This document shows, in pieces, positions 22,825-32,619 of a stretch of DNA of 32,619 nucleotides (position 1 is the first letter of the stretch; every line of letters begins with the position of its first letter). Location: assembly GCA_028714015.1 (NCBI GenBank), contig JAQTNG010000008.1, positions 1 to 32,619 of the forward strand. The letters run 5' to 3'. Source of the DNA: Elusimicrobiota bacterium. GTDB taxonomy: Bacteria > Elusimicrobiota > Elusimicrobia > UBA1565 > UBA9628. The notes under the pieces were generated by a model, which was not told the DNA's origin, made no database searches, and saw only the letters and a list, made by a program, of their open reading frames with translations. Made by a program: the position numbers and the translations under genes.

Positions 22825-23277
22825 TCAGCTCTTGAAGTAGTAGCGCAGGCCGAGGCCGGCGTCAAAACCCACGCCGGGGTCGCGCGTCAAAAAGAAGACG
22901 GGAACGATCTCGACGAAAACCTCGACGGGATTGTTCGGCAGCCAGTACGCCACGCCCGCGACCGCGCGAACGCCGAACTCCGAGTCCCGGAAGGTCCGGA
23001 CCTGCGCGCCGAGGCCGAGATAGACGGGCAGCTTTCCCTGGGCCGGCTGCGGGAGGACGTCCCAGCCGTGCCAGAGGTAGTCGCCGTAAACGGTCAATTC
23101 CGAGTTCCAGCCCAGGCCGGCGTCGATGGCCTTGTTGCCGTCGAGCCAGAGCTTGCCGGTGATGCCCGTCGGAGCGCCGAGGATGACGCCGACGCCCGTG
23201 TCCCCGGCCTTCTGAGCCCGAACGGGAGCGGCGGCCGCGAGCAGGCAAACGAGCGCGAGCAAAGTTCTTTTCTTCAC
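22825..23277 (-). CDS. Small outer-membrane beta-barrel protein (DUF3996-like)
   Basis: The 150-residue protein has a signal peptide (MKKRTLLALVCLLAAAAPVRA) followed by alternating hydrophobic strands such as GVGVILGAPTGITGKLWL, LTVYGDYLWHGWDVL, YLGLGAQVRTF and a closing DAGLGLRYYFKS with C-terminal aromatics, typical of an eight-stranded barrel. The overall pattern resembles DUF3996-type barrels known from spirochaetes, an uncertain match. The start is a GTG at 23277 with GGAG seven bases ahead. The promoter has TATAGT with a GAATTCCGCA box just upstream of its -35 position. It is divergent from the lmo0937-type gene. Confidence 0.72.
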   Translation of the reverse strand: MKKRTLLALVCLLAAAAPVRAQKAGDTGVGVILGAPTGITGKLWLDGNKAIDAGLGWNSELTVYGDYLWHGWDVLPQPAQGKLPVYLGLGAQVRTFRDSEFGVRAVAGVAYWLPNNPVEVFVEIVPVFFLTRDPGVGFDAGLGLRYYFKS

Positions 23278-23305: not shown

Positions 23306-23401
23306 ACTATACCCTCTTCCCGGAATCGCTCCTATGCGGAATTCTACCTGCTCCCCCGCGTATTACTCCGAATAGTCGAGGCCCGCGTAAGGGAGTATCC
23401 T
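23306..23401. promoter_or_regulatory. Divergent control region with GAATTCCGCA box and composite element
   Basis: Leftwards (minus strand), TAGAATTCCGCA (23346-23335) is followed by TAGGAG, 17 bases and TATAGT (23311-23306). Rightwards (plus strand), TGCGGAATTCTA (23335-23346), 13 bases, GTATTACTCCGAATA (23360-23374), 21 bases and TATCCT (23396-23401) precede the gene at 23432. Neither side has a good -35, so activator dependence is likely. The rightward layout recurs base for base in spacing at 31329-31395 on the minus strand. Confidence 0.6.
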
Positions 23402-23431: not shown

Positions 23432-23581
23432 ATGGGCTTGCTTGACGTCGTCATACTGCTGGTGCTGCTGTCGTGGCTTGGGGGCTTTTCTCTCCACGTC
23501 GGCGGCGGTCTGATCCACCTCCTGATCGTCATCGCCTTGATCATGCTCGTCTTCAGGATCGCGAGCGGCCGGCGTGTCTAG
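23432..23581 (+). CDS. lmo0937-family (DUF5670-type) small membrane protein
   Basis: A 49-residue protein, MGLLDVVILLVLLSWLGGF then SLHVGGGLIHLLIVIALIML, ending VFRIASGRRV. The two short hydrophobic helices separated by a glycine turn, the GGGLIHLLIVIA segment and the GRRV end are the pattern of lmo0937-family proteins. The start is the ATG at 23432 with GGAG eight bases upstream. The last bases overlap the GTG of the next gene, so translation is coupled. The function is unknown, and family members are often stress-induced. Confidence 0.8.
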   Translation: MGLLDVVILLVLLSWLGGFSLHVGGGLIHLLIVIALIMLVFRIASGRRV

Positions 23582-24860: not shown

Positions 24861-24870
24861 GTTCGGTCAG

Positions 24871-24911
24871 TAGAATTCCGCATTGAGACGTTTTGGTGCG
24901 GACGCTACAAT
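24871..24911 (+). promoter_or_regulatory. Promoter with GAATTCCGCA box for the GlsB/PAP2 operon
   Basis: TAGAATTCCGCA (24871-24882) directly abuts the -35 TTGAGA (24883-24888); a 17-base spacer leads to TACAAT (24906-24911). Transcription would begin about 25 bases before the ATG at 24944. Box, -35 and -10 keep the same spacing as at 31662-31702. Confidence 0.65.
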
Positions 24912-24943: not shown

Positions 24944-25189
24944 ATGAATCTGCTCTATCTAGTCGTTGTCGGCCTCATCGCGGGCTGGCTCGCGGGCCGG
25001 GTCATGAAGGGGGGAGGATACGGCATTCTCCTTGATATAGTCCTCGGGATACTCGGCGGCGTCTTCGGCGGCTGGACCTTCGGCGTGCTCGGAATATGGC
25101 CCGGCGGAGGCATCGTCCCGGCGATCCTCGTCGGTTTCGTCGGGGCCGTCGCTTTGGTTTGGATCACGCGCCAGATCAAGAAGGTCTAG
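24944..25189 (+). CDS. GlsB/YeaQ/YmgE-family small membrane protein
   Basis: The 81-residue protein starts MNLLYLVVVGLIAGWLAGRVMKGGG, split by a glycine-rich turn from two further helices. The pattern GLIAGWLAGRVMKGGGYG then DIVLGILGGVFGGW is the classic YeaQ/GlsB (transglycosylase-associated) family signature. Members are envelope or general stress proteins of unknown biochemistry. The ATG at 24944 is preferred over an upstream ATG, since the Shine-Dalgarno GGAGG (24931-24935) lies ahead of it. It is the first gene downstream of the promoter and is followed after three bases by a PAP2 gene. Confidence 0.9.
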   Translation: MNLLYLVVVGLIAGWLAGRVMKGGGYGILLDIVLGILGGVFGGWTFGVLGIWPGGGIVPAILVGFVGAVALVWITRQIKKV

Positions 25190-25192
25190 CCG

Positions 25193-25936
25193 ATGAAAGC
25201 ACTGGCTTTGCTCCTTTTTCTGCTGCTGCTTCCCGCCAAGGCCGCGGCCGCGGAGCTGCGCGAGCTCAAGGAGTTCCCGAAAGACATGTGGGGCGGCTTC
25301 AAGGAGGAGGGAAAGCCCGAGGGGCTTCTCACCTTGCTCACGGCCGGCGCGGGGGCGAGCATCGCCCGCTTCGGCTCGCGGACGTATTTCGACGATTTTC
25401 GCGTCGCCGACACGCTGGAGAGGACCGCTCCTCTGGGCAAGCGCGCCGTCGATTTCGGCGCCGTCATCGGTTATCCCGCCTTCCTCCTTCCCGCCATGGC
25501 CGGCACCTATTTCGCGGGCGCCTACGCGCACGCCGACGGGGCGCAGGAGTTCGGCCTGATGGGTTTCGAGGCGCTCGCCTTGGCCGGTCTTCAGACGGAG
25601 GTTCTCAAAGTCAGCGTGCGCCGCTTGCGCCCGGACAAAACCGACTTCGCCGCGTTCCCGTCGGGACACACGTCGGCCTCGTTCGCCCTGGCCACGGTGG
25701 CGGCCTCGAAATGGGGCTGGAAGGCCGGCGTTCCCGCCTGCATGCTGGCGGGGTTCGTGGGCTATACGCGCATGGAGGGCCGCAGCCATTATCTGTCGGA
25801 CGTCTTTTTCGGCGCCGGCCTCGGCATCCTCTCGGGGCGCGCGGTCTACAAGTTCCGCAAGCACGCGCATCCTGATCGGTACGTCTTCACGCCGTTCCTC
25901 ACCCCGGGCGGCGGCGGCGTGACGATGGCCTTCTGA
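25193..25936 (+). CDS. PAP2-family membrane phosphatase (first copy)
   Basis: The 247-residue protein has a signal-like N-terminus (MKALALLLFLLLLPAKAAAA). The three PAP2 motifs are present: K-x6-RP as KVSVRRLRP, PSGHTSASFALAT, and the TRMEGRSHYLSD block with the catalytic His and Asp. The acid-phosphatase fold is thus complete, and dephosphorylation of a lipid phosphate (phosphatidate or undecaprenyl pyrophosphate) at the outer face is likely. The length is typical. The C-terminus is Gly-rich (PGGGGVTMAF). It overlaps the next PAP2-like gene by one base (TGATG). Confidence 0.88.
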   Translation: MKALALLLFLLLLPAKAAAAELRELKEFPKDMWGGFKEEGKPEGLLTLLTAGAGASIARFGSRTYFDDFRVADTLERTAPLGKRAVDFGAVIGYPAFLLPAMAGTYFAGAYAHADGAQEFGLMGFEALALAGLQTEVLKVSVRRLRPDKTDFAAFPSGHTSASFALATVAASKWGWKAGVPACMLAGFVGYTRMEGRSHYLSDVFFGAGLGILSGRAVYKFRKHAHPDRYVFTPFLTPGGGGVTMAF

Positions 25937-29843: not shown

Positions 29844-30422
29844 CTAGAAATGATGATTCAACGATGCCGTCAGCATGAATCCGTTGTCGCTGAAATGACG
29901 GCCCGCGGGATGAGCGAGGTCCTCGGAGTTGATGTCGCGGGTCCAGAGATAGCGGTAGGAGCCGTCGATGGACCAGAACTTATTGAGGGACAGCTTCAAG
30001 CCCGCCCCGGCGTGAGGGCCGAAGCGGTATTGAGTGCTCTCGTGCGGCGCGCGAACGTGGGTGTAGTACCACCCGCCGCCGCCGAGTATGAACGGCGTCA
30101 GCCGGGAAGAAGGCATCAGGTAGACGAGGAGCGAGGCCTGGACGGGATACACGTCCACGACCGTGCTGCCGAAGGTCTCCTTGCGGTAGTCGATCGACCC
30201 CTCGAGCGCGAGCATGTGCGAGAGATGAATGCGCAGCTGGGCGCCCCCGCTCAGCGCGCCTTCGCTGGCGTCCTTGGGGCGGAAATACATGGCCCGGCCG
30301 CCGAGCGAGACGCCTTCGGCGATCTCGCTGTCGGCCGCGAGGACCCGGATGGGCGCGAACACGGCCGCCGCGAGAACCAGCGCCGAGATCCCTCGGCGGA
30401 AAAGACGGTCGTGGGTTTTCAT
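29844..30422 (-). CDS. Outer-membrane beta-barrel protein (OmpW/OmpA-like porin family)
   Basis: The 192-residue protein has a signal peptide ending near VLAADS. Alternating strands follow, such as GVSLGGRAMYFRPK, SGGAQLRIHLSHMLALEGS, VYPVQASLLVYLM, LTPFILGGGGWYYTHV and YRFGPHAGAGLKLSL. The final residues NGFMLTASLNHHF end in Phe, as BAM-recognised barrels do. It is most like an eight-stranded porin-family protein. The ATG overlaps the ferritin-like gene's stop (ATGA). It ends 29 bases before the small basic frame. Confidence 0.75.
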   Translation of the reverse strand: MKTHDRLFRRGISALVLAAAVFAPIRVLAADSEIAEGVSLGGRAMYFRPKDASEGALSGGAQLRIHLSHMLALEGSIDYRKETFGSTVVDVYPVQASLLVYLMPSSRLTPFILGGGGWYYTHVRAPHESTQYRFGPHAGAGLKLSLNKFWSIDGSYRYLWTRDINSEDLAHPAGRHFSDNGFMLTASLNHHF

Positions 30423-30976
30423 TTGTTCTCCTTGAGCAGCGACGACAGATCGTCGGCGTGCTCTTCTTCCTTGGCGAGTATGCCTTCCAGCATGACCCGG
30501 GTCGTCGGGTCGTCGTTGCCGATGTAGCGGATCATCTCGCCGTAGCTGTCGATGGCGATGCGCTCGGCGATGAGATCCTCCTTGATCATCTCCGCCAGGT
30601 CCTTGCCTTCCGCGTACTCCGAATGGCTGCGCGTCGCCAGGCCCTCCGGCGAGAAATCCGGGGCGCCGCCCAGCTGCACGATCCTTTCGGCGAGCAGGTC
30701 CGCATGGGCCTGCTCCTCGGCGGCGTGCTGAGCGAACTCGGCCGCGACGCCCTTCGCTTGAATCCCCTTGGCCATGAAGTGGTGGCGCTTGTATCGCAGG
30801 ACGCAGACGATCTCGGTCGCGAGCGCCTCGTTGAGCACCTTGATGACGGTGTCGCGGTCGGCCTTATATCCGGCGGTCACGGCGCCCTTCTCGATGTGCA
30901 GGCGCGCGCGATCCCGGAGCAGCTTGATGTCGCTCAGGAACGGCTTTCCGTCGACGGCGCTGTTCGTGTGGTTCAT
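30419..30976 (-). CDS. Ferritin-like (bacterioferritin-type) di-iron protein
   Basis: The 185-residue protein is a four-helix bundle. Metal ligands are visible in VLNEALATEIVCVLRYKRHH (first Glu), AAEEQAHADLLAERI (Glu and the His of ExxH), AERIAIDSYGEMIRYIG (Glu), and AKEEEHADDLSSLL (second ExxH). The order matches bacterioferritin-type domains, though the N-terminal ~45 residues are extra. It may store or detoxify iron. There is no signal peptide, so it is cytoplasmic, unlike its operon partners. The start overlaps the YtxH-like stop (ATGA). Confidence 0.85.
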   Translation of the reverse strand: MNHTNSAVDGKPFLSDIKLLRDRARLHIEKGAVTAGYKADRDTVIKVLNEALATEIVCVLRYKRHHFMAKGIQAKGVAAEFAQHAAEEQAHADLLAERIVQLGGAPDFSPEGLATRSHSEYAEGKDLAEMIKEDLIAERIAIDSYGEMIRYIGNDDPTTRVMLEGILAKEEEHADDLSSLLKENK

Positions 30977-31287
30977 TTGAGCTGCTTGTCGATGTGCGAC
31001 CAGGCGCTCTTGAGGTCGGCGGTGATGAGCTTGAGCTCGGCCGCGCTGACGTTCTTCACGCGTCCGAAGCGCTCCACGGTCTCCGTGATGAGCTCGTTGT
31101 ACGCTTCCTGGTTGACGCTATCGAGCTTCTCCATCTTCTCGAGGACCTGCCCCTTCAACTGAAGCGCCCAGCCGGCGATCGTCTCGCGGTTCTTGGCGCC
31201 GCGCTTTCCGTACAGAAAATAAGTTCCGGCCGCGGCGAGCGCCGCCAGACCGATCCCGGCTCCGATCATCTTGTTCTTGGTTTTCAT
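30973..31287 (-). CDS. YtxH-like membrane-anchored small protein
   Basis: With the ATG at 31287 (Shine-Dalgarno GGAG eight bases upstream) the protein has 104 residues. A glycine/alanine-rich membrane helix (MIGAGIGLAALAAAGTYFLY) is followed by a short basic patch (GKRGAKNR) and a charged amphipathic helix (about residues 40-95). YtxH-type stress proteins share this shape. A GTG at 31299 would only add four residues. It is the first gene of a six-gene operon and lies downstream of the composite element. Confidence 0.75.
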   Translation of the reverse strand: MKTKNKMIGAGIGLAALAAAGTYFLYGKRGAKNRETIAGWALQLKGQVLEKMEKLDSVNQEAYNELITETVERFGRVKNVSAAELKLITADLKSAWSHIDKQLK

Positions 31288-31328: not shown

Positions 31329-31395
31329 AGTATACGCGCGCGCCGGACTTGAGGATATTCGGAGTTGTACTCGGCGCGGCGCGTAGAATTACGCA
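31329..31395 (-). promoter_or_regulatory. Composite element and promoter of the YtxH/ferritin operon
   Basis: On the minus strand: TGCGTAATTCTA (31395-31384), 13 bases, GTACAACTCCGAATA (31370-31356), 21 bases and TATACT (31334-31329). Both spacings equal those upstream of the gene at 23432. The -10 lies 41 bases before the ATG at 31287. No -35 is visible, which supports an activator. Confidence 0.6.
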
Positions 31396-31661
31396 GAAAT
31401 TCGGTTGTCGTGATACGACCCAGCAGGAAGCGGGCTAGGTTCGCCAGCAGGCGGCCAAGACGAACGTCGGGCCGCCATGTCGTGAATGGACAGCGCCGGA
31501 GTTGGGAATCAGTCTTGAGAATGGATGCTCCTCGCGCTCATCTTTGCCCCGCGGGTTCCTTAGTAAGCGCGGAAACAATCTTGCGCGCTTGCGCTTCCGC
31601 GCTCGCGGCCGAGGCTCAGTGGTTTTGATCGCGGCTCCGTAATTTACCTGCCCGAGCCTCG
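31396..31661. other. Gene-poor stretch with one hairpin
   Basis: No convincing gene is seen between the YtxH promoter region and the collagen-like promoter. Short frames here lack codon bias, Shine-Dalgarno and recognisable features. A stem of nine bases (AGCGCGGAA at 31566-31574 with TTCCGCGCT at 31595-31603, 20-base GC-rich loop) is the only notable structure. It could be part of an untranslated RNA, but that is speculative. Confidence 0.3.
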
Positions 31662-31702
31662 TGGAATTCCGCATTGGCCGGAGCCTCTGCCCGCGGTACG
31701 CT
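31662..31702 (+). promoter_or_regulatory. Promoter with GAATTCCGCA box for the collagen-like gene
   Basis: TGGAATTCCGCA (31662-31673) directly abuts TTGGCC (31674-31679) as a -35, with 17 bases to TACGCT (31697-31702). The spacing is identical to 24871-24911. The ATG at 31741 follows with the Shine-Dalgarno GGAG a few bases ahead. Confidence 0.55.
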
Positions 31703-31740: not shown

Positions 31741-32619
31741 ATGTCAGCCCGGAAAATAATCTTTGCATTCATCCTCGTGGCTCTAAGCTCGGGCCGCGCC
31801 CGCGCCTTTCCTCAGTTTCTTCTCTACCAAGGGCGCTACTCGAACAATGGCGTCGCTCCCACCGGGACCGTGCCGATGGAGTTCCGTATCACCAATGGCA
31901 GCGTCGCCGGGTGCGGCTCCGCCGCGAACGGGACGAGTTTGTTTTGGACCTCCGGACCGCAAAGCGTGGCGGCGAGCAACGGCGTCTTCGCTTATAAGCT
32001 CGGCATGCAGGCCGATCAGGTCACGCAGGACCAGGGTTTCTCCAACATCAACTGGGCGGCTCCGGGCGTCGCCTTCACCATCGACGTCTGCGTCTCCGGC
32101 GCCTCGCTCGTGCCTCATGAGCCCATCGGCTCGGGGGTCTTCGCTCTTTACGCGAGCTCCGCCGGCTACGCGGCCTCGACGACCCTTGACTCATCCAGCG
32201 TCACTCTGCAGGGCAACACTTTCAATGCTCCCAATCGTCTGGTGAAGCTCGACGCCTCGGGGAAGTTCCCGGCGTTGGACGGATCTCAGATCACGAATCT
32301 CGCCGCCGGACTAACCGGAGCGACGGGCGCAACGGGTTTGCAGGGCCTGACCGGGAATGCGGGAGCCGCGGGCGCGGCGGGAGCGGCAGGAGCGCAGGGT
32401 TTGCAGGGCCTGACCGGGAATGCGGGAGCCGCGGGCGCGGCGGGAGCGGCAGGAGCGCAGGGTTTGCAGGGTCTGACCGGGAATGCCGGAGCCGCGGGCG
32501 CGGCGGGAGCGGCAGGAGCGCAGGGTTTGCAGGGCCTGACCGGGAACGCCGGAGCAGCGGGCGCGGCGGGAGCGGCAGGAGCGCAGGGTTTGCAGGGTCT
32601 GACCGGGAATGCCGGAGCC
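31741..32619 (+). CDS. Secreted collagen-like surface protein (3' end beyond the window)
   Basis: The frame is open from the ATG at 31741 to the window edge (293 codons). The N-terminus MSARKIIFAFILVALSS is a signal peptide. A globular domain of about 175 residues begins FPQFLLYQGRYSNNGVAPTG and includes VPMEFRITNG, LFWTSGPQSVAASNGVFAYKLG and SNINWAAPGVAFTIDV, the beta-rich domain common in exported repeat proteins of these bacteria. From residue 199 it is Gly-X-Y collagen-like, in a 21-residue unit of seven triplets: GLQ, GLT, GNA, GAA three times, GAQ. A trimeric fibre with a distal domain beyond the window is expected (inference). The Shine-Dalgarno is GGAG. Confidence 0.85.
   Translation, partial: MSARKIIFAFILVALSSGRARAFPQFLLYQGRYSNNGVAPTGTVPMEFRITNGSVAGCGSAANGTSLFWTSGPQSVAASNGVFAYKLGMQADQVTQDQGFSNINWAAPGVAFTIDVCVSGASLVPHEPIGSGVFALYASSAGYAASTTLDSSSVTLQGNTFNAPNRLVKLDASGKFPALDGSQITNLAAGLTGATGATGLQGLTGNAGAAGAAGAAGAQGLQGLTGNAGAAGAAGAAGAQGLQGLTGNAGAAGAAGAAGAQGLQGLTGNAGAAGAAGAAGAQGLQGLTGNAGA
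32335..32619 (+). repeat. 63-bp tandem repeats encoding collagen triplets
   Basis: Four full copies (32335, 32398, 32461 and 32524) and a partial fifth (32587) continue past the window edge. Copies 1 and 2 are identical. The others differ by silent changes only (for example GGC to GGT-type third-base changes). The units keep the reading frame. Confidence 0.95.

Follow-up and report, generated by a model that had tools for sequence, protein, structure and literature searches.

The window analysed here, a stretch of 32,619 nucleotides that forms contig C8 in the genome of an uncultured Elusimicrobiota bacterium (G000; 4.05 Mb in 505 contigs), carries five promoters of one family, in which a conserved arm with the consensus GTAnnAyTCCGnA lies at a fixed distance upstream of a sigma70-like -10 hexamer (TATnnT). 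Taken as a whole, the explanation that we consider likely is that these promoters belong to a stress regulon that is transcribed by the housekeeping polymerase, depends on class II activation and is controlled by an autoregulated regulator of the NarL/FixJ family. The relevant features of the window are as follows:

22825..23277, minus strand: protein of 150 aa (secreted or outer-membrane-like), served by the divergent arm, downstream of the divergent promoter
23306..23311, minus strand: -10 TATAGT of the divergent promoter (promoter 23347-23306)
23333..23347, minus strand: inverted arm (the former box 1), by arm match; putative operator for divergent transcription and at the same time the distal arm of the DUF5670 gene
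23360..23374, plus strand: proximal arm (putative operator) of the DUF5670 (lmo0937-type) promoter, GTATTACTCCGAATA; the arm core ends 23 nt before the -10
23373..23378, plus strand: weak -35 position TAGTCG of the DUF5670 promoter, 17 nt before the -10
23396..23401, plus strand: -10 TATCCT of the DUF5670 promoter (promoter 23360-23401)
23432..23581, plus strand: DUF5670 (lmo0937-type) small membrane protein, 49 aa (Pfam PF18919, E 8e-10)
24870..24911, plus strand: single-arm promoter with arm GTAGAATTCCGCA, -35 TTGAGA and -10 TACAAT, by arm-plus-(-10) match
24944..25189, plus strand: transglycosylase-associated (GlsB/YeaQ-type) membrane protein (PF04226)
30419..30976, minus strand: ferritin-like/rubrerythrin protein, second gene of its operon (PF00210, E 1.8e-29)
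30973..31287, minus strand: 104-aa YtxH-like protein, first gene of the same operon (likeness by inspection)
31329..31334, minus strand: -10 TATACT of the YtxH-like/ferritin operon promoter (promoter 31370-31329)
31356..31370, minus strand: proximal arm of this promoter, GTACAACTCCGAATA, by arm match
31383..31395, minus strand: distal arm of this operon, read on the minus strand as TGCGTAATTCTAC, by arm match
31661..31702, plus strand: weak single-arm promoter (GTGGAATTCCGCA, TTGGCC, TACGCT) with two mismatches to the pattern
31741..32619, plus strand: start of a secreted collagen-repeat protein (PF01391), served by the weak promoter; the gene is truncated at the window end

The first-pass annotation of this DNA had described a composite of two boxes and a -10 at fixed spacing upstream of both the DUF5670 gene and the YtxH-like/ferritin operon, and both copies were found where it had placed them, namely TGCGGAATTCTA-N13-GTATTACTCCGAATA-N21-TATCCT at 23335-23401 on the plus strand and TGCGTAATTCTA-N13-GTACAACTCCGAATA-N21-TATACT at 31395-31329 on the minus strand, the joint fixed-spacer pattern occurring twice in the window and not once in 100 dinucleotide shuffles. 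Both boxes are hence present, but they are not two different boxes, each being the reverse complement of the other: box 2 used as a query matches box 1 on the opposite strand with 2 mismatches, so that the element is an inverted repeat, with a full unit of TnCGGAnTnnTAC-N12-GTAnnAnTCCGnA and two arms in inverted orientation 23 bp apart from start to start. Likewise, the two promoters then named are real, but the window holds three further ones, at 23347-23306 (minus strand), 24870-24911 (plus strand) and, in a weak form, 31661-31702 (plus strand).

At 23333-23374 the inverted repeat serves two divergent genes, that of DUF5670, which begins 30 nt after its -10, and that of the 150-aa protein, which has no Pfam family and whose promoter recurs before its orthologues in G007 and G040. 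The distal arm at 31383..31395 has no -10 on its other side and is consequently read as an upstream site and not as a divergent promoter; the 104-aa YtxH-like protein of that operon gave no Pfam match. The GlsB/YeaQ-type gene is followed at 25193 by a PAP2 phosphatase gene (PF01569). A box at 31662 was considered as half of another pair and reads better as the weak single-arm promoter of the gene at 31741.

The geometry of the promoter was derived from 37 elements (up to 2 mismatches) in the fetched loci of six genomes, which were aligned on their 74 arms alone, the arms having been selected without reference to the -10. A TANNNT hexamer starts exactly 23 nt downstream of the arm in 37 of the 74 and at 24 nt in 9, while any other offset is occupied 0-3 times, so the spacing is fixed and not random. 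With a matrix made from the arms and applied to held-out loci, the -10 again lay at offset 23 in 15 of the 24 arms outside its training set. Directly after the arm stands TTG in 29 of the 74 arms and, in the subset of 37 whose -10 starts at 23 nt, T-n-G in 33 and TTG in 19, which by its position 17 bases from the -10 represents a weak -35. The earlier statement that neither promoter has a -35 therefore does not hold for the promoter family, in which the two copies noted at that time have some of the poorest -35 sequences (TAGTCG, TATCCT). The centre of the arm lies near -42 and abuts the -35, as is the case for class II activator sites (near -41.5), and a weak -35 combined with a sigma70-like -10 is likewise what is expected of a class II promoter. 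As such, the layout argues for the activator-dependent reading proposed before, with activation as the probable mode of control.

Across the six genomes we found 87 promoters with arm plus -10, of which 81 are intergenic although coding sequence makes up 93% of these loci, and 79 precede a start codon by 0-100 nt (median 25; gene calls for these counts came from a simple codon-usage script). An inverted partner occurs at offset 23 in 49/87 promoters and at no other offset in more than 4. It is commoner between divergent genes (37/53) but is also seen in tandem arrangement (11/33), from which it follows that the distal arm probably has a role of its own. A -10 is likewise present at arms that lack a partner, so that the single arm is the working unit. 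The arm itself is an imperfect dyad (CGTA-N6-TCCG); a strict reading of each arm as a perfect dyad was dropped, since a self-palindromic score was reached in 6/87 only.

In G000, arm plus -10 at the fixed spacing (up to 2 mismatches) occurs at 31 places, nearly all of them just before a gene, compared with 1 for the reversed-pattern control; the loosened full-unit pattern gave nine places versus three for its control. Among 58 relatives, searched with up to 1 mismatch, six genomes from three families of the order carry 2-9 copies each (control 0), so the element is conserved across families; a single AT-rich match in G050 was taken as chance. An exact scan of the genome contig collection for the full composite returned 0 matches, this being a strict pattern and a collection that possibly omits records near the own genome. 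In orthologous promoters the arm and the -10 are kept and the remainder is more variable, as seen for DUF5670 and OsmC in G000 and G007, for GlsB in G000, G029 and G037, and for the YtxH-like/ferritin operon in G000, G007 and G037.

The targets and operon members in G000 identified by Pfam comprise DUF5670, Transgly_assoc (GlsB/YeaQ), ferritin/rubrerythrin, YtxH (the C161 copy), PilZ, BrkB/YihY, LPG_synthase_TM, phosphatidylserine decarboxylase and PAP2, and OsmC together with a pyridine-nucleotide disulphide oxidoreductase, a zinc alcohol dehydrogenase and a TPP enzyme; DnaJ was added by sequence. In relatives, catalase, ScdA/RIC hemerythrin, BON, a scaffold-YkuD L,D-transpeptidase, an AI-2E transporter and a cation P-type ATPase are found among the targets. 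The regulon of small membrane and ferritin-like stress proteins postulated from two promoters is hence borne out by the 31 sites of the own genome, and its theme is envelope, redox and general stress.

Concerning the factor that reads the element, contig C10 has several sites and, downstream of the gene of a 1686-aa CheB-CheR-PAS-HisKA_3-HATPase kinase, a tandem of three NarL/FixJ response regulator genes (C10:7442-9624). The candidates are about 220 aa long, with one to several paralogues per genome (three in G000), and consist of a receiver (PF00072, E 4.2e-28) and a LuxR/GerE helix-turn-helix domain (PF00196, E 8.6e-14); almost all of the 37 copies compared retain the residues of the receiver phosphorylation site (DD, the D of LD..LP, S/T and K). 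The adjacent CheB-CheR-PAS protein contains HisKA_3 and HATPase_c and is as such a histidine kinase beside the regulator, in the same order in several genomes. Regulator orthologues (E up to 1e-40) are present in 14/58 relatives including all six element-rich genomes (p 7e-5), and in a sample of the phylum strong orthologues (E up to about 1e-53) occur in 17/19 genomes with at least four sites versus 27/295 overall (the latter counted by hand; p 8e-19), both p-values overstating the case because the genomes of a clade are related and not independent. The element with a correct -10 stands upstream of regulator genes in G000, G001, G002, G007, G028, G029, G037, G040 and SKS5. In SKS1, JAQTOU and CAIXBR it precedes an outer-membrane-type gene that is followed by a regulator; in regulator-positive genomes with few sites (G001, G002, G044), some of the sites are no more than a few kb away from the regulator gene. 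From our point of view, judging by sequence, the most likely factor is a response regulator of the NarL/FixJ type whose gene lies next to that of the CheB-CheR-PAS-HisKA_3 kinase, the binding paralogue being one of two or three candidates. Genomes with the regulator and few or no sites (G011, G027, G033, G035, G042 and G044) count against this assignment, as does the imperfect symmetry of each arm.

The conserved gene order is CheB-CheR-PAS kinase, regulator 1, regulator 2, often a 194-aa outer-membrane-type gene, and regulator 3 (L051, i.e. G000:C10, 2385-9624; also L092, L093, L094, L099, L113, L115, L116 and L119). Regulator 2 is a receiver-only or shortened form in several genomes and could in this form act as a phosphate sink or as a dominant partner. 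Just before CheB-CheR kinase genes in L119 (about 1216-1577) and L116 (about 1830-1960) there are near-symmetric arm variants (CCGTAnTAnTACGG, e.g. TCGTAATACTACGTA), with no -10 at the usual distance; these are possibly a related site for another paralogue. At some regulator promoters, TTGGCA...TGC look-alikes of a sigma54 promoter (GG-N10-GC at -24/-12) were seen and rejected, as by inspection they are two bases too short.

It is conceivable, and to our mind unlikely, that a different transcription factor binds the element and that the NarL-type regulator is merely a target in the same island. The regulator genes are indeed targets of the element, and since the sites cluster in islands, any island gene would show co-occurrence with them. 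Moreover, in G253 (90% complete) eight sites stand without a strong orthologue of the regulator; either the assembly lacks the regulator gene or its role has passed to another paralogue. Against this stands that no other DNA-binding protein recurs beside the sites in the gene lists, as judged by inspection, and that regulator and kinase are conserved together across families, with several regulator promoters carrying the element.

Two further interpretations appear very improbable to us. A strongly fixed distance to the -10 combined with a stress regulon would also be expected of sigma-factor promoters, so that the arm could be taken as the -35 element of an alternative (ECF-type) sigma factor instead of an activator site. 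However, ECF promoters have a conserved -35 motif 15-19 bp from the -10, whereas the conserved arm ends 23 nt and its TCCG 25 nt before the -10, the proper -35 place 17 nt upstream is occupied by TnG/TTG, the -10 is TATnnT, and both the inverted partners and the divergent use are as expected for a protein able to bind in either orientation. The many intergenic copies of a 38-bp inverted repeat are reminiscent of mobile or structural DNA (REP/MITE, terminator or recombination site), a reading to which we give hardly any credence, together with that as repressor sites: conservation is limited to arm core, -35 and -10 with variable flanks, the copies are placed in the gaps between divergent genes or shortly ahead of starts, and, being upstream of the -10, they are not transcribed. 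A repressor at -42 with a poor -35 would be possible but less usual.

Under the preferred reading of class II activation by a NarL/FixJ-type regulator, the element would be the operator of positive control in a regulon transcribed by a housekeeping-type RNA polymerase. A dimeric activator is predicted to bind GTAnnAyTCCGnA near -42, directly against the degraded -35 (TnGnCg), and to recruit the polymerase to the TATCAT/TATACT -10 seventeen bases further on. The second, inverted arm, 23 bp upstream from start to start, would either serve the divergent gene or form a distal activator site near -69. Through the element upstream of its own genes the regulator would be autoregulated, and the neighbouring kinase would be expected to phosphorylate it. 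The output would be an envelope-, redox- and general-stress programme.

Members of the NarL/FixJ family such as NarL, VraR, DevR/DosR and RcsB activate from sites that overlap or abut the -35. The candidate resembles them in its receiver and LuxR-type helix-turn-helix, its closest solved chains being NarL (5.6e-30), VraR, DevR and RcsB, but differs in that its sensor is a CheB-CheR-PAS-HisKA_3 fusion; to our knowledge, the operator GTAnnAyTCCGnA is unlike any site of NarL, VraR, DevR/DosR or RcsB. Rcs (RcsB) and VraSR control envelope genes, and envelope targets including an L,D-transpeptidase and lipid and membrane proteins are found here as well, whereas redox and sensory genes are among the present targets too. 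Comparable outputs (OsmC, ferritin-like, catalase, YtxH, GlsB/YeaQ, DnaJ, BON) are known from the general stress responses of sigma-B, RpoS and EcfG; these rely on a sigma-factor swap, while the promoters described here are sigma70-like with a putative activator site. ComA of Bacillus subtilis, a NarL-family activator that serves quorum sensing, uses a class II site and a distal site at strict spacing, as is seen here, but it combines a proximal direct repeat with a distal inverted repeat in place of the same arm twice in inverted orientation (PMC4797271).

Gene control in Elusimicrobiota is little known and nearly all members are uncultured. Literature searches of open-access papers yielded no prior description of the regulator, its target set or Elusimicrobiota regulons. 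The mechanism is of a known kind; regulon, operator and regulator appear undescribed so far. What is gained from sequence alone is an operator at base level, about 30 promoters in one genome, a predicted regulator with its kinase and their distribution in the phylum, and many small proteins of unknown function (YtxH, DUF5670, GlsB and unnamed outer-membrane-type proteins) are placed in one programme. One could speculate, and we do so tentatively and with some doubt, that this represents a class-wide general stress response of Elusimicrobiota, run with no alternative sigma factor by autoregulated paralogous NarL-type regulators under a CheB-CheR-PAS hybrid kinase, in which one bidirectional operator might join envelope repair, redox defence and sensory kinases and the regulon might be gained or lost as a whole.

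Two further observations concern the surroundings of the sites. In G000:C18:9000-21600 (L052) a run of genes resembles a phage structural and tail cluster (prophage), and a strong copy of the element is found at C18:23473 with no called gene close downstream. Large secreted proteins of the FEKNRGQTDASVKFLTRAAGY type, followed by smaller membrane-type genes, occur in L051 (9783-18153), L094, L104 and L117; these gene sets occur in duplicate next to the regulators, and every one of them has a promoter copy of its own.
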